Part shown: in pieces, positions 47,315 through 53,806 of the stretch | Position numbering within the stretch: the first letter of the stretch is position 1 | Layout of the letters: the number at the start of each line of letters is the position of its first letter | From: Erythrobacter sp. | GTDB lineage: Bacteria; Pseudomonadota; Alphaproteobacteria; Sphingomonadales; Sphingomonadaceae | Length of the DNA: 64,000 nucleotides | NCBI GenBank assembly: GCA_027311945.1 | Contig: DAICXZ010000026.1 | Span: 1-64,000 of the forward strand | Direction of reading: 5' to 3' | Made by a program: the position numbers and the translations under genes | The notes under the pieces: generated by a model | Database searches by the model: none | What the model saw: only the letters and a program-made list of their open reading frames with translations | Told to the model about the DNA's origin: nothing

Positions 47315-47604
47315 TGCGGGTGATGGCTGCGAGGCCTTTCACCGCATCGGGCGAGGCCCCATCTTGGCGGCATGATCACCGCCCCCCTTACACCTGAAGG
47401 CCTTGATCGGATTGCCTGTCGAGGCTCGGCGTGTTCGGGCTTTCCTACGTCGGGCGCGCTGTGCTGTGCTGCGGCCATGGCCTTCCATCACTCCCTCACC
47501 CGCTGCCTTCACCGTGCGCGGCGCGGGGCGAAATTTGGTCCGCAGGATTTTCCTCTCAGGACGGTGTCACACCTGTCACACCTTGTTGGATTGGGGGAGC
47601 GCGC
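47315..47604. other. Spacer before the helicase gene
   Basis: This stretch of 290 bp has no convincing gene. An open frame in phase with the helicase reaches back to 47431, but its Cys/Arg-rich peptide does not resemble the family. It holds the perfect tandem duplication TGTCACACC x2 at 47565-47582, 22 bp before the helicase GTG. No clear promoter or terminator was seen. Confidence 0.5.
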
Positions 47605-50073
47605 GTGAGCGACCCGGTCATCCCGCCCGAGATCGCCGACTGGTTCGCCGGCCGCGGCTGGCGGGTGCGGCGGCATCAGGCCGAGATGCTCACCGCCGCC
47701 GATAGCGGCAGGCACGCGATGCTGGTGGCCGATACCGGCGCGGGCAAGACGCTGGCGGGCTTCCTCCCCACGCTCGCGGCCTTCTGCCCCTCGCGGCTCG
47801 GCGGGGCCAAGCCGCCCGAGGGGCTGCACACGCTCTATGTCTCGCCGCTGAAGGCGCTGGCGCATGACGTGCAGCGCAACCTCATCACCCCGGTTGAGGA
47901 GATGGGGCTCGACATCCGCATCGAGACCCGCAGCGGCGACACCCCCTCCGACCGCAAGAAGCGCCAGCGCGTCCGCCCGCCGCATGCGCTGCTGACCACG
48001 CCCGAGAGCCTGAGCCTGTTGCTCAGCTACCCCGACAGCCTCACGCTGTTCGAAGGCCTGAAACGGGTAGTGATCGACGAGATCCACGCCTTCGCCACCC
48101 AGAAGCGCGGCGACCTGCTGGCGCTGGCGCTCTCGCGCTTGCAGGCAATCGCGCCCGAGATGCAGCGGGTGGGGCTCTCGGCCACGGTGGCGGACCCCGA
48201 GGTCTATCGCGGCTGGCTTGCGCCCTGGGGCGACCTCGATAGCGTGGCCCTGGTCGAGGGCGAGGAGGGGGCCGACCCCGAGCTGGAGATCCTGCTGCCC
48301 GATGGTGAACGGGTGCCCTGGGGCGGCCATGCCGCCACCTGGGCGATCCCGCAGCTCTATCGCCGCATTGCCGCAAACCGCACCACGCTGGTCTTCACCA
48401 ACACCCGCTTCCTCGCCGAGTACGTGTTCCAGCACCTGTGGGACGCGAACGAGGACAACCTGCCGATCGGCATCCACCACGGCTCGCTCTCGAAGGAGGC
48501 ACGGCGCAAGGTGGAAGGCGCGATGGCGCGGGGCGAACTGCGCGCGCTGGTCTGCACCGCCAGCCTCGACCTCGGGGTCGACTGGGGCGATGTCGATCTG
48601 GTGGTGCAGATGGGCGCGCCCAAAGGCTCATCGCGGCTGTTGCAGCGGATCGGGCGGGCGAATCACCGGCTCGACCAGCCCAGCCGCGCGCTGCTGGTGC
48701 CGGGCAACCGGTTCGAGTTCCTCGAAGCGACCGCCGCGCTCGATGCCGTGCATGAAGGGCAGCGCGACGGCGAGGACTTCCGGCCCGGTGGGCTCGACGT
48801 GCTCGCCCAGCATGTGATGGCCCGCGCCTGCGCGGGGCCGTTCGACGAGGCGGCGCTGCTGGCCGAGGTTCGCTCGTCGTTGCCCTATGCGGGGATCGAT
48901 GCCGAGGCCTTCCGCCGGGTCCTGGAGTTCGTCGCTACCGGCGGCTACGCGCTCAAAGCCTATGACCGCTTCCGCCGCATCGTGCGCGAGCGTGCCAAGG
49001 ATGGCTCGTTTACCTGGCGGCTGACTCACCCCGATCAGGCACAGCGGCACCGCCTCAACGCCGGGATCATCGTCGATTCGGAGATGCTCGACGTGCGTTT
49101 CCGCAACGGCCGCTCGCTCGGCAAGGTGGAGGAGCGCTTCGCCGCTTCTCTGCGCGTGGGCGACACGTTCCGCTTTGCCGGGGTTACGGTCGAAGTCGAG
49201 AGCCTGCGCGATATGGAGCTGGTCGTGCGCGCAAGCAGCAGGGGGGCGATGATCCCGAGCTACGGCGGCTTGCGCCTGCCGCTCACCACCCATCTGGCGG
49301 GCCGCGTCCGTGCGCTGCTGACCGACCGTGCAGGTTGGGGCCGCTTCCCTGATGACGTGCGCGAATGGCTCGAAGTGCAGGACTGGCGCAGCCAGCTGCC
49401 GGGGCCGGACAACCTGCTGGTGGAGACCTTCCCCCACGCGGGCCAGCACTATGCGGTCTACTACACCTTCGCCGGATGGAACGCGAACCAGTCGCTGGGG
49501 ATGCTGATCACCGCGCGGATGGAGGCGCGCGGGCTGATGCCGGGCGGCTTCGTGGCGAATGACTACTCGCTGGCGGTCTGGGGCCTGAAACGTGTCGACG
49601 ATCCGGCCCCGTTGCTGTCGCCCGACATCCTCGCCGAGGAGTTCAGTGACTGGGTCACCCAATCGCACCTGCTGCGCCGTGCCTTCCGCGAGGTGGCGGT
49701 GATCGGTGGGCTGGTCGAGCGCCAGCAGCCGGGCAAACGCAAGAGCGGGCGGCAGGTCACCTTCTCGACCGACCTCATCTACGATGTGCTGCGCAAGCAC
49801 GAGCCCGATCACGTGCTGATCGAGGCGGCCTGGGCCGATGCGCGCGCGAAGATGACCGACGTGGCGCGGCTCGCCGAGGTGCTCGATACGGCGGCGGCGC
49901 GCCTGGAGCATGTGGTGCTCGAACGGGTGAGCCCGCTGGCGGTGCCGGTGATGGTGATGATTGGACGCGAAGCCGTGCCGCAAGGGGCGCAGGACGACGA
50001 ACTGTTGCTCGCGGCGGAAAGCTTGGAGGGCGCGGCGATGCGGGTGGAGCCGCTGGATGACGAGCGCGATTGA
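47605..50073 (+). CDS. Lhr-type ligase-associated DEXH-box DNA helicase
   Basis: The 822-aa SF2 helicase has a Q-like N-terminus GWRVRRHQAEML, Walker A ADTGAGKT (about 42-49), Walker B DEIH (about 159), SAT (about 192) and motif VI LQRIGRANHR (about 348). An Lhr winged-helix/beta-barrel core and the C-terminal Lhr-associated domain follow. The family is linked to DNA repair; in many alpha- and betaproteobacteria it sits with an ATP-dependent ligase, an exonuclease and the phosphoesterase PdeM. None of those partners is adjacent here. The start is GTG at 47605, giving the expected length. Confidence 0.92.
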   Translation: MSDPVIPPEIADWFAGRGWRVRRHQAEMLTAADSGRHAMLVADTGAGKTLAGFLPTLAAFCPSRLGGAKPPEGLHTLYVSPLKALAHDVQRNLITPVEEMGLDIRIETRSGDTPSDRKKRQRVRPPHALLTTPESLSLLLSYPDSLTLFEGLKRVVIDEIHAFATQKRGDLLALALSRLQAIAPEMQRVGLSATVADPEVYRGWLAPWGDLDSVALVEGEEGADPELEILLPDGERVPWGGHAATWAIPQLYRRIAANRTTLVFTNTRFLAEYVFQHLWDANEDNLPIGIHHGSLSKEARRKVEGAMARGELRALVCTASLDLGVDWGDVDLVVQMGAPKGSSRLLQRIGRANHRLDQPSRALLVPGNRFEFLEATAALDAVHEGQRDGEDFRPGGLDVLAQHVMARACAGPFDEAALLAEVRSSLPYAGIDAEAFRRVLEFVATGGYALKAYDRFRRIVRERAKDGSFTWRLTHPDQAQRHRLNAGIIVDSEMLDVRFRNGRSLGKVEERFAASLRVGDTFRFAGVTVEVESLRDMELVVRASSRGAMIPSYGGLRLPLTTHLAGRVRALLTDRAGWGRFPDDVREWLEVQDWRSQLPGPDNLLVETFPHAGQHYAVYYTFAGWNANQSLGMLITARMEARGLMPGGFVANDYSLAVWGLKRVDDPAPLLSPDILAEEFSDWVTQSHLLRRAFREVAVIGGLVERQQPGKRKSGRQVTFSTDLIYDVLRKHEPDHVLIEAAWADARAKMTDVARLAEVLDTAAARLEHVVLERVSPLAVPVMVMIGREAVPQGAQDDELLLAAESLEGAAMRVEPLDDERD

Positions 50074-50082
50074 GGTGCAGGG

Positions 50083-50664
50083 TTACGAGCAGGCGTTCGC
50101 AGGGCCAAGATCGGTTTGGTCCCACTCGATAGGTGCGACGGGGGCGATCAGGGTGAGATTAAGGCGATATTGCGGGCTATCCTTGCTGAAGTCTCGGTAG
50201 CGCTCCAGTTCGCCGAAGCACAGCTTGGTCACACCGCTGTTCTTCACGATGTTGAGCACCTTGACCGCCAGATCATAGCTCGCATCGCCATCCGGTGCGA
50301 ATACGATCCTTGGTTCGATGGGCTGCCTCATCCCGTCGTCGAGATGGTGGACGAGTTCGGATGGGGAGACGGTTTCGCCATCCCACTCAATGGTGCCAAA
50401 ACGCGTGGGGGAGAGCCGGTGGGCCTCCTCTTGCGGGGTGCGGGGCAGCGGTTCGGCCGGATCGGCAATGGGTAGATCGAACGTCAAGACGTGGATCGGC
50501 ACCCGTTCGAAGGTCAATCCGACCACCACCAGCGTGGTGAAGAAGAGCAGGATCGGCAGCGAGTTTGCCCGCGACAAGGGTTCGCCATGGACAATCCGTC
50601 GAACCGCGCGCTGGCGCCGGAAGCTAGTCGGCACGGAAACTGCGATACCGCTCGTTTCCGACAA
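50083..50664 (-). CDS. ExbD-like protein lacking the conserved transmembrane Asp (ExbD4)
   Basis: The 193-aa protein is clearly related to the three ExbD proteins next to it. It shares TFDLP after the helix, IEWDGETVSPSELVHHL, FAPDGDASYDLAVKVLNIVK and SGVTKLCFGELERYRDF with exbD2 and exbD3. Aligning on the DLP motif, NTTPLID of ExbD3 becomes NSLPILL here, so the proton-carrying Asp is Leu40. It also has a C-terminal extension of about 30 residues and an N-terminal extension of about 18. Its ATG is 41 bp inside exbD3. It may be a regulatory or scaffold paralogue, or a decaying copy; the intact frame argues against simple decay. Confidence 0.78.
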   Translation of the reverse strand: MSETSGIAVSVPTSFRRQRAVRRIVHGEPLSRANSLPILLFFTTLVVVGLTFERVPIHVLTFDLPIADPAEPLPRTPQEEAHRLSPTRFGTIEWDGETVSPSELVHHLDDGMRQPIEPRIVFAPDGDASYDLAVKVLNIVKNSGVTKLCFGELERYRDFSKDSPQYRLNLTLIAPVAPIEWDQTDLGPANACS

Positions 50665-51049
50665 AGCCGAGCTTCTTTACCCCAGCCTGCCGGATCAGGT
50701 TCAGCACCCGCGCCGATTGGGCATAGGAGGCATTGCCATCGGGCTCGTACTGCAATTGCGGCTCGACCGGCATGGCCTGCGTCTGCCTTAGGAGTTCGCG
50801 CAGGGCGCCTTCGCTCACTGCCTCGCCGTTCCAGCGGATGGTGCCGCTTTGCTGGATCGTAATCTTGTTCTTCACATCGTCGATGCCGGGACAGTCTGTG
50901 CAGGCGCGCGGAAGGTCGACCGTGAGACTGTGCGAGGCGACCGGGATCGTGATGACGAACATCACGAGCAGCACCAAGAGCACGTCGATAAGCGGGGTGG
51001 TGTTGAGCTCGCCCAGCGGGCGGTCGGCACGGGCAACTGCAAAGGCCAT
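50624..51049 (-). CDS. ExbD/TolR family biopolymer transporter (ExbD3)
   Basis: The 141-aa protein has a cytoplasmic N-terminus, one membrane helix with LNTTPLIDVLLVLLVMFVI including the conserved Asp22, and a periplasmic domain ending GFVGNERYRSF. A Cys pair (CTDC, about 49-52) follows the DLP motif. It is closest to ExbD2, so it looks like a tandem duplicate. It has its own near-consensus promoter and is followed by the overlapping exbD4. Confidence 0.9.
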   Translation of the reverse strand: MAFAVARADRPLGELNTTPLIDVLLVLLVMFVITIPVASHSLTVDLPRACTDCPGIDDVKNKITIQQSGTIRWNGEAVSEGALRELLRQTQAMPVEPQLQYEPDGNASYAQSARVLNLIRQAGVKKLGFVGNERYRSFRAD

Positions 51050-51207: not shown

Positions 51208-51645
51208 TCAGCCCTTGCCGAACTGGCGATACTTTTCGTTGCCGACGAAGCCGAACTTGGTCACGCCGCTGGCCTTGATGATGTTCAGCACCTTGGCCGA
51301 CAGATCGTAGCTCGCGTTTGCTTCCGGCTCGAACTGCAGTTCGGGCTCAACCGCGAAACGCAGCGACTGCTGCAGATTGCGAACCAGTTCGCCCTGGTTG
51401 ATCACGGTTCCGTTCCAGAGGATTTGGTTGGTGGGGGTCAGCACGATCTTGTTCTTGATCGGATCGACCTGGTCCGGTGGAGGCGGTTCATTGCTGGCCA
51501 CCGGAAGATCGATATTTACCGCGTGCGTTGCCACGGGGATGGTGATGATGAACATGATGAGGAGCACGAGCAGGACGTCGATCAACGGCGTCATGTTCAT
51601 TTCCATCATCGGGGCGCCATCATCCTTGCCACCTGACATTGCCAT
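51208..51645 (-). CDS. exbD: ExbD/TolR family biopolymer transporter (ExbD2)
   Basis: The 145-aa protein has the helix motif MNMTPLIDVLLVLLIMFII with Asp23, then VNIDLPVASNEPPPPDQV, and the periplasmic region LQFEPEANASYDLSAKVLNI ending FVGNEKYRQFGKG. With ExbB and TonB it would use the proton gradient to energise outer-membrane receptors. It follows exbD1 by 34 bp and is the last gene before the terminator. Confidence 0.93.
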   Translation of the reverse strand: MAMSGGKDDGAPMMEMNMTPLIDVLLVLLIMFIITIPVATHAVNIDLPVASNEPPPPDQVDPIKNKIVLTPTNQILWNGTVINQGELVRNLQQSLRFAVEPELQFEPEANASYDLSAKVLNIIKASGVTKFGFVGNEKYRQFGKG

Positions 51646-51679: not shown

Positions 51680-52216
51680 TCAACCGTTCGGGTCGACCGG
51701 GTTGGAGATGAAGCCCACGGTCGGATAGCCGGCCGCCTGGACGTTGAAGATGGTGCCGGCAACGCAGCGCCACGGCGCGTTGACGTCGCCGCGGATGTGC
51801 ACCTGCGGGATCATTTCCGGGTTGGCCATGATCGCGTCGACGCCGCCGGCCTTCTGCACGATGTTGTCGAGCCGCGAGAAGGCACGGTCGTAGAGTTCGC
51901 TCGAATCGACCAGCGTGGTGTTGTTGAAGAACACCCGGCAATCCCCGTTGCGATCGGCACCGGCATAGCTGGTACGCAGCGTGCTGGGGGTGCGGCCCTC
52001 AGCGTCGGTGGTGGTCACCGTGATGAGCAGGTTTTCCACCTTGTCTTGCGATTCGACCGACACGAAGATCGGAACCTCGAGCTTCTCGACCGTCTGAATG
52101 GCCACGGGAACGGCAATCAGGAAGATGATCAGCAACACCAGCATCACGTCCACCAGCGGAGTGGTGTTGATGTCGGCCATCGGCTTGTCGCCACCACCGC
52201 CTGTCGAAATAGCCAT
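51680..52216 (-). CDS. exbD: ExbD/TolR family biopolymer transporter (ExbD1)
   Basis: The 178-aa protein carries [20 protein letters not shown] with Asp23. Its periplasmic domain is longer than in ExbD2 and ExbD3 and contains [13 protein letters not shown] and two Cys (in NGDCRVFF and WRCVAG) that could form a disulfide. It is the more diverged of the functional-looking ExbD copies and not a recent duplicate. It follows exbB with an 87-bp spacer that holds a strong hairpin. Confidence 0.92.
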
Positions 52217-52303: not shown

Positions 52304-53092
52304 TCAGGCCTTCTTCGGCGGCACGCCACCGGTGGTGGTGGCGGGCTTGGCAGCAGCAGCAGCCGGCTTGGCGGCAGCCACGGTCACGGCCGGCTTCACG
52401 GCACCGTTCGAGGTGATGTAAGCCTGCAGGTCGGTCGAGAAGGCGCTCATCAGTTCGCCGATCTTCTTGTTGCGGGCCTGCAGCCAGTTGTAGGCGAACA
52501 CGGCCGGCACGGCGACGAGCAGACCGATCGCGGTCATGATCAGCGCTTCACCGACGGGACCGGCGACCTTGTCGATCGAAGCCGAGCCGCTCATGCCGAT
52601 GTTGATCAGCGCGCGGTAGATACCGATAACCGTACCGAGCAGGCCGACGAACGGAGCGGTCGCGCCGACGGTGGCGAGGAACGACAGGCCGCCGTTCAGC
52701 TTCGAGGTGATCGAATCTTCCGAACGGCCCAGCGAACCATGCAGCCAGTCATGCGCTTCGAGGCTGTTGGGCATCTTGTCGTGCTCGGCCTGAGCCTTCA
52801 GGCTGTCGTCGACCAGCTGGCGCCATGCGCTGTTCTTCTCGAGCTTGCCGGCACCTTCGCTCAGCGTGCTGGCGCGCCAGAAGCCCTGACGGACCGCCTT
52901 GTACTGGTTGAGAATCTTCTTCTGTTCCATGAACTTGGTGATCAGGATGTAGAAGGAGCCCACCGACATGATGATCATGATGGCAAGGATCGCCCAAGCG
53001 ACGGGGCCGCCTTCTTCCAGGGCCTGCACGAAGCCGAATTCGGTGGCAGGCGCTGCGGCATCACCGGCGGCGGCAAGAATGTTCATAAGCAT
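52304..53092 (-). CDS. exbB: MotA/TolQ/ExbB proton channel family protein
   Basis: The 262-aa protein has three membrane helices (about 30-50, 140-165, 180-200). The channel motifs LSFLATVGATAPFVGLLGTV (about 136-155) and GPVGEALIMTAIGLLVAVPA (about 178-197) are intact. A C-terminal Ala/Pro/Lys-rich tail (about 230-262) is an extra feature. It forms the pentameric channel that ExbD dimers enter. It is the only exbB seen for four exbD genes. Confidence 0.95.
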   Translation of the reverse strand: MLMNILAAAGDAAAPATEFGFVQALEEGGPVAWAILAIMIIMSVGSFYILITKFMEQKKILNQYKAVRQGFWRASTLSEGAGKLEKNSAWRQLVDDSLKAQAEHDKMPNSLEAHDWLHGSLGRSEDSITSKLNGGLSFLATVGATAPFVGLLGTVIGIYRALINIGMSGSASIDKVAGPVGEALIMTAIGLLVAVPAVFAYNWLQARNKKIGELMSAFSTDLQAYITSNGAVKPAVTVAAAKPAAAAAKPATTTGGVPPKKA

Positions 53093-53137: not shown

Positions 53138-53806
53138 TTAGCTCAGTCGGTAAACGATCGTCAGCGAATCGCTACCGGTGGTAGGGTTGCCGGCCGCATC
53201 GCGGGCGGGTTCGTAGCGGGCGTACCGCTCCATGCCTTCGCAAGCTGCCGTGTCGAGATCGCTTTCACCGCTCGACGAGGTCACGCGGCACGAAGACACG
53301 CGGCCCTCGGCGTTGATGGTCACCGAAACACCCACGTTGCCTTCGATCTCGCGCCGGATGGCACGCGAAGGATAGGCTTCCTGAATGCGAGCAGCCCAAC
53401 GATTGAAGTTGTCACGCTGGGCAGCACGCGCCTGCGAAGGTGCGGGCGGCGGAGCGGGCGGCGGAGCAGCCGGAGCCGGCGGCGGGATAATGCGCGCAGG
53501 CGGGGCCGGCGGCGGAATCCGCGGCTGAGTCACGATCGGCGGCGGTGCCGGCGCGATATTGATCGGCGGCGGCGGCGCAACCGGCGGCGGCGGCGCCGTA
53601 TCAGGTTCCGGCGGAGGCGGGGGTTCCTCCGACGGCTCGGGTTCGGGCTCTTCAATATCGACCGTGGTCACACGCTCAACCACCGATTTGACCGCCGAAT
53701 AGGCAAGTCCGGTGACCAGCGTATAGCCAATGACGACATGAATGAGGCCAACGATGATAATCGCGACAACGCGACTACCGCTCATTTGTTGGTCAGCGTA
53801 AGCCAT
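53138..53806 (-). CDS. tonB: Energy transducer TonB
   Basis: The 222-aa protein has an N-terminal anchor (about 13-33, VVAIIIVGLIHVVIGYTLVT), an acidic then strongly Pro/Ala-rich periplasmic spacer (about 48-135) and a C-terminal TonB domain (about 140-222) with YPSRAIRREIEGNVGVSVTI. The spacer produces a GGCGGC-rich low-complexity DNA stretch at about 53420-53640. It is first in tonB-exbB-exbD1-exbD2 and would energise receptors such as the one at 34516. Confidence 0.95.
   Translation of the reverse strand: MAYADQQMSGSRVVAIIIVGLIHVVIGYTLVTGLAYSAVKSVVERVTTVDIEEPEPEPSEEPPPPPEPDTAPPPPVAPPPPINIAPAPPPIVTQPRIPPPAPPARIIPPPAPAAPPPAPPPAPSQARAAQRDNFNRWAARIQEAYPSRAIRREIEGNVGVSVTINAEGRVSSCRVTSSSGESDLDTAACEGMERYARYEPARDAAGNPTTGSDSLTIVYRLS

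Follow-up and report, generated by a model that had tools for sequence, protein, structure and literature searches.

The last gene of a Ton operon in an Erythrobacter genome, named exbD4 here, was found to belong to a conserved and selected subfamily of ExbD proteins that lack the proton-binding aspartate of the membrane helix; it is not a product of local decay. In a joint alignment, Asp fills this column in 160 of 161 ExbD2, 92 of 93 ExbD3 and 1 of 39 ExbD4 sequences. Judged from these sequences, it is quite possible, if short of probable, that ExbD4 serves as a maintained, proton-inert accessory ExbD of its own operon's Ton motor, with its helix in the ExbB pore. A subunit that carries no protons may thus form part of some Ton motors.

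The window (the whole stretch of 64,000 nucleotides that was analysed) carries on its minus strand the order tonB-exbB-exbD1-exbD2-exbD3, followed by exbD4 as the last gene. Four ExbD-type genes thus stand in tandem, and exbD4 is co-encoded with tonB and exbB. The features are as follows.

53138..53806, minus strand: tonB (Pfam).
52304..53092, minus strand: exbB, MotA_ExbB family (Pfam).
51680..52216, minus strand: exbD1, Asp kept (NTTPLVD); PF02472 at 47.6 bits.
51208..51645, minus strand: exbD2, Asp kept (NMTPLID); PF02472 at 76.7 bits.
50624..51049, minus strand: exbD3, Asp kept (NTTPLID); PF02472 at 78.4 bits.
50083-50664, minus strand: exbD4 as given in the list of open reading frames, TTG start.
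50083..50634, minus strand: exbD4, Asp-less ExbD-type gene of 183 aa with the probable GTG start (Pfam PF02472).
50509..50559, minus strand: predicted membrane helix of exbD4, residues 26-42 (AlphaFold2 model).
50545..50547, minus strand: codon of Leu30 (CTC), where the proton-binding Asp would sit (alignments).
50185..50424, minus strand: predicted ExbD-type periplasmic domain of exbD4, residues 71-150 (AlphaFold2 model; best Foldseek match 8p9r).
50218..50220, minus strand: Cys139 of exbD4, first of two periplasmic cysteines (two in 38 of 38 intact relatives).
50089..50091, minus strand: Cys182 of exbD4, cysteine of the tail at the C-terminus (the same in all 24 sequences aligned).

A long open reading frame on the plus strand (window 47431-50073), presumably helicase-like, ends 9 bases short of the end of exbD4, so that the two genes are convergent and almost without a gap.

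The original prediction described an ExbD-type reading frame with the transmembrane Asp replaced by Leu, and this was confirmed. Counted from the DLP motif, NTTPLID of ExbD3 and NSLPILL of ExbD4 match without a gap, and since both lie at the same distance from DLP, it is Leu that takes the place of the Asp. The same residues are paired when the ExbD of 7ajq is aligned with the window ExbD4 (phmmer, E 0.2, weak alone). The additional 30 or so residues that had been noted at the C-terminus are real as well. The number given to the leucine, Leu40, needs revision, as it is probably Leu30 of a 183-aa protein starting at GTG 50634 rather than at TTG 50664. Among the 24 relatives with a start measurable against an exbD3, the exbD4 start precedes the last sense base of that gene in 16 and coincides with it in two more (starts picked by eye), which makes GTG 50634 the probable start. 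This codon gives an overlap of 11 bases with the end of exbD3 and lies at offset -7 to its last sense base (-10 to the last stop base), -7 being the most frequent offset among the relatives, with starts again picked by eye.

The window ExbD4 matches PF02472 (ExbD/TolR) with 33.6 bits, the cut-off being 25.4. In the numbering of the TTG form the match starts at residue 50, past the Asp motif, which therefore adds nothing to the score. A PF02472 match alone is no warrant for annotation as a proton-driven ExbD. Both NCBIfam equivalogs were missed, TIGR02803 (ExbD) with 13.8 against 152.95 and TIGR02801 (TolR) with 14.1 against 127.3, but this is uninformative because ExbD1, ExbD2 and ExbD3 of the window fall below both cut-offs too.

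Relatives were collected from several sources. A search of 199 genomes of its family with the window protein gave a match in 195, mainly to ExbD2 or ExbD3, and loci were taken from 60 of the 199, selected for strong or multiple matches. Further loci came from 36 more genomes of the genus, 12 genomes of a search of the order and 80 named loci. A scan of the named genomes with the window ExbD4 alone as the query found no relatives; with the neighbouring ExbD2, relatives were found in 561 stretches, and 8 of the best 80 of these 561 carry ExbD4. In total 189 loci, the window included, were sorted by profiles of the four ExbD kinds and left 162 distinct clusters after removal of duplicates: 63 of type ExbD1-D2, 50 of D1-D2-D3, 35 of D1-D2-D3-D4 and 14 others, counts that are not frequencies because the sample was steered to matches. 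Among the 14 others are D1-D2-D4 (L036), a broken exbD3 ahead of exbD4 (L121), D3-D4 at a contig end (L127), an exbD4 that is interrupted by an in-frame stop (L057) and an exbD4 remnant (L116). Rows below 90 bits for ExbD4, or below 120 bits for ExbD2 and ExbD3, were dropped ahead of the counts. This removed the remnants found in L114 and L116, the exbD3 genes of L121 (broken) and L067 (short), a second piece each in L057 and L065, and the lipoprotein of L212. Thirty-nine distinct exbD4 genes remained, 38 of them intact.

An intact exbD4 was present in 16 of 40 genomes of the genus; among 396 genomes from the order, no fewer than 26 have one, all in the window's own family. For the other 24 genus genomes the stretch fetched, in some cases at a contig end, held no intact ExbD4, which suggests that the protein is probably dispensable. 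Named carriers include Aurantiacibacter luteus KA37, Alteraurantiacibacter aquimixticola, Qipengyuania proteolytica 6B39 and Porphyrobacter sp. AAP82; Q. proteolytica, Porphyrobacter sp. AAP82 and two uncultured Erythrobacter are labelled as Erythrobacteraceae. In a weak comparison by eye, no link was seen across the 40 genus genomes between ExbD4 and the number of TonB-dependent receptors among the matches listed (up to about 32). ExbD4 is maintained in L036, which lacks exbD3, and in L121, whose exbD3 is broken; ExbD3 is therefore no obligate partner.

At the Asp column the 39 ExbD4 proteins hold Gly (14), Ala (9), Leu (7), Ser (4), Val (2) and Asp, Phe and Ile (one each). The column is mixed, with Gly the commonest state, and the check for a conserved Leu came out negative. 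The single ExbD2 without Asp is a sequence truncated by a contig end; the second ExbD2 copies of L045 and L049 have the Asp as well and stand outside the alignment count. In the exbD3 of L206 Gly occupies the Asp site (MNITPLIG), the sole case in 93 ExbD3, and this gene adjoins an Asp-less ExbD4. It had been proposed that orthologues with Asp or with disrupted frames would point to a locally decaying copy. Asp was found in L265 only and is lacking from the other 38, and an in-frame stop was found in L057 with 38 of 39 genes intact. The Asp codon of L265 is GAC, and its neighbours in the tree have Gly (L044, GGC; L039, GGT). Lying beside Gly relatives and one base from the codon of L044, this Asp looks like a later single-base change, and its presence indicates that Asp is not forbidden at the site.

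Other features of an ExbD protein are retained. Of 38 ExbD4, 28 have the canonical spacing of 22 between the Asp column and DLP and 10 have another, the Pro column holds Pro in 29 and another residue in nine, the juxtamembrane His column holds His in 35 of 38, and in an N-terminal HGEP-type motif the His is found in 31 of 38 and the Gly in 30 of 38. These counts exclude L263, which had been given a late start codon and is included in the Asp column (n = 39). In the AlphaFold2 model of the window ExbD4 a single N-terminal helix (residues 26-42) is followed by the ExbD-type periplasmic domain (71-150). The mean pLDDT is 79, with block means of 94-98 for residues 71-140, and the tail after residue 150 is at low confidence with block means of 52-56, both in this model and in that of the L158 ExbD4. 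The best Foldseek match was 8p9r, the periplasmic domain of E. coli ExbD with TonB (E 4.5e-6, TM-score by target 0.81). All six matches at E up to 0.001 were periplasmic domains of ExbD or TolR, and four of the top five were E. coli ExbD with TonB or a D-box peptide (TM-scores by target 0.79-0.82).

Every intact ExbD4 (38 of 38) has exactly two periplasmic cysteines, the first near the last strand, the second in the tail. Periplasmic cysteines are absent from 158 of 162 ExbD2, the other four having two; among 93 ExbD3, 60 have none, 30 have two and three have one, and no association was found between cysteines in ExbD3 and the presence of ExbD4 (Fisher p 0.51). A disulfide between the two cysteines of ExbD4 would be the natural reading of this pattern.

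The suggestion that this open frame is not a dead gene was upheld by 38 of 39 relatives without Asp and by the rejection of omega = 1 in all three ExbD4 sets of the dN/dS check. In the codon models, which leave out the first five of the kept codon columns, omega was 0.139 for a clade of four Erythrobacter sequences (L206, L220, L268 and L269; 2dlnL 142, or 71 log units, against omega = 1) and 0.115 for nine sequences (2dlnL 383), likelihood differences that are approximate since the fits with omega = 1 used a fixed kappa of 2.0 and the others a free one. Fifteen genus sequences gave omega 0.05 (2dlnL 581) at a tree length of 93, which is saturated, and this value was not relied on. Pairwise estimates by NG86 were 0.11-0.34 (six pairs, dS 0.6-1.3); the closest pair, L220 and L269, gave 0.46-0.50 at dS 0.07, a weaker constraint.

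By region, the four-sequence clade gave rough values of 0.126 for the N-terminus with the helix (45 codons), 0.137 for the core (90) and 0.093 for the tail (31). Eight sequences gave 0.089, 0.121 and 0.136 in the same order, also rough, on much longer trees. Selective retention of the periplasmic domain, as first put forward, thus holds in that the domain is constrained and is too narrow in the word 'selective': in the four-sequence clade the helix is as constrained as the periplasmic core and so seems functional too. Within this clade ExbD4 is less constrained than its neighbours, with omega 0.139 against 0.104 for ExbD3 and 0.001 for ExbD2. The ExbD2 protein is identical among the four members, and ExbD4 evolves faster.

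All 38 intact ExbD4 fall on one branch with a long stem (SH-aLRT 100) in a quick tree, in which long branches leave the inner placements unsure. The slot after exbD3 can have other occupants. In 2 of 40 genus genomes (G103 and G221) the fourth gene, in the exbD4 slot, is ExbD1-like and lacks the Asp motif, and an uncultured Erythrobacter genome (MAG) has a short lipoprotein-like gene there.

L035:3719-4303, plus strand: Asp-less ExbD1-like gene, genome G103, 32% identity to the window ExbD1.
L134:2504-3076, minus strand: Asp-less ExbD1-like gene, genome G221, 32% identity to the window ExbD1.
L212:5666-6025, plus strand: 120-aa lipoprotein-like gene after exbD3, with an ExbD periplasmic domain and no ExbD helix.

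The start of the L212 protein is lipobox-like (ALSSC). Together these three genes suggest that the slot was filled by Asp-less relatives of ExbD more than once.

Several explanations other than an accessory motor subunit were weighed. A slowly decaying exbD duplicate, kept by chance or by its overlap with exbD3, would fit the in-frame stop in L057, the bare remnant in L116, the many genus genomes without such a gene and the rapid divergence, the other 23 rows of the alignment having 23-37% identity to the window ExbD4. This explanation is largely refuted by the omega values and has very little left in its favour: neutrality is strongly rejected, all distinct genes except one are intact, two cysteines are fixed, and the overlap with exbD3 covers just a few codons, with the first five kept codon columns outside the models. 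The proton relay might also have moved instead of being lost, with another acidic residue taking over. Six genus relatives (L115, L125, L127, L130, L131 and L135) do have an Asp four positions ahead of the canonical site (YDVVA or YDVIA), one helical turn towards the cytoplasm, and L265 has its Asp at the site itself. However, the 39 ExbD4 have no acidic residue within the helix core of 17 residues (-3 to +13) other than the Asp of L265 and residues at +13. The window copy has a Glu at +13 and nothing acidic earlier, and a moved relay appears improbable.

A periplasmic adaptor is a possible but somewhat doubtful reading. The helix would then be a mere anchor, and the ExbD-type domain would act from outside the pore, be it on TonB, on another ExbD or on the cell wall, as a tether, sensor or competitor. 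The predicted ExbD periplasmic fold is consistent with it, and the L212 protein, a lipobox-like start with an ExbD periplasmic domain and without the ExbD helix, indicates that such a form exists. A Glu or Asp precedes the helix in 158 of 161 ExbD2 and 81 of 93 ExbD3, and 22 of 39 ExbD4 have Arg there, which would also suit an adaptor. A mere anchor, however, need not be constrained as strongly as the domain, nor need it keep the ExbD helix spacing, as 28 of 38 do.

The ExbD helix geometry and the overlap with exbD3 would most simply make ExbD4 an axle subunit of the Ton motor. ExbB is described as a ring of five encircling two ExbD helices (PMC9389320). In the proposed accessory role the ExbD4 helix would enter the central pore of this ring as half of the two-helix axle, and its likeliest partner would be a proton-competent ExbD, either ExbD3, which the exbD4 start codon overlaps, or ExbD2. 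A mixed axle of ExbD3/ExbD4 or ExbD2/ExbD4 would have one Asp in place of two, and such motors might be slower, gated or specialised. The periplasmic domain would still contact TonB or the cell wall, and the disulfide would staple it to its tail. Alternatively, ExbD4 might cap idle ExbB rings against proton leak, a self-pair of ExbD4 giving a capped ring. A non-conducting partner (inhibitor, scaffold or sensor), as originally predicted, is plausible. The more specific picture of mixed 5:2 Ton motors with one proton-carrying ExbD and one inert ExbD4 helix, acting as a natural one-Asp gear or clutch with a possibly redox-sensitive lock formed by the tail disulfide, seems rather unlikely on what the sequences offer.

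With an axle protein that lacks the Asp by nature and is under selection, in an otherwise ordinary Ton operon of named strains, the need for both Asp residues would become testable, and likewise the sharing of one ring by two different axle proteins. No account of an Asp-less ExbD was found in searches of an open-access library; most subscription papers and preprints lie outside this scope, so that novelty is unproven.

Tandem exbD genes, on the other hand, are already known. Xanthomonas campestris has, like the window, a tandem accessory exbD in its Ton operon (tonB-exbB-exbD1-exbD2); according to PMC3551730, its exbD2 is dispensable for iron uptake and the mutant is without pectate lyase activity. 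Sphingobium SYK-6 shares the operon plan of the window with tonB1-exbB1-exbD1-exbD2, an operon that resisted disruption (PMC8599685). That paper describes only exbD1 and exbD2 in the operon, its exbD3 being a tolR elsewhere in the genome, and names X. campestris ExbD2 as the Swiss-Prot entry nearest to Sphingobium ExbD1; the ExbD1 of the window keeps its Asp.

Two different axle proteins per ring protein, as proposed for ExbD4, are also described for AglQ and AglS of Myxococcus gliding, although PMC9389320 treats AglQ/AglS heterodimers as not yet established. TPH-vWA genes occur mostly in heterologous pairs, and their helices are described with the Asp, unlike that of ExbD4, in PMC12204202. 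A further comparison is with E. coli ExbD, which shares with ExbD4 the Pfam match (PF02472), one membrane helix with the ExbD periplasmic fold (predicted for ExbD4) and a tonB-exbB-exbD operon. The exchange D25N is described as giving an inactive E. coli mutant (PMC11658791). In contrast to the E. coli protein, ExbD4 is without the proton-binding Asp (Asp25 in E. coli) and has a cysteine-bearing tail and the HGEP-type N-terminal motif.
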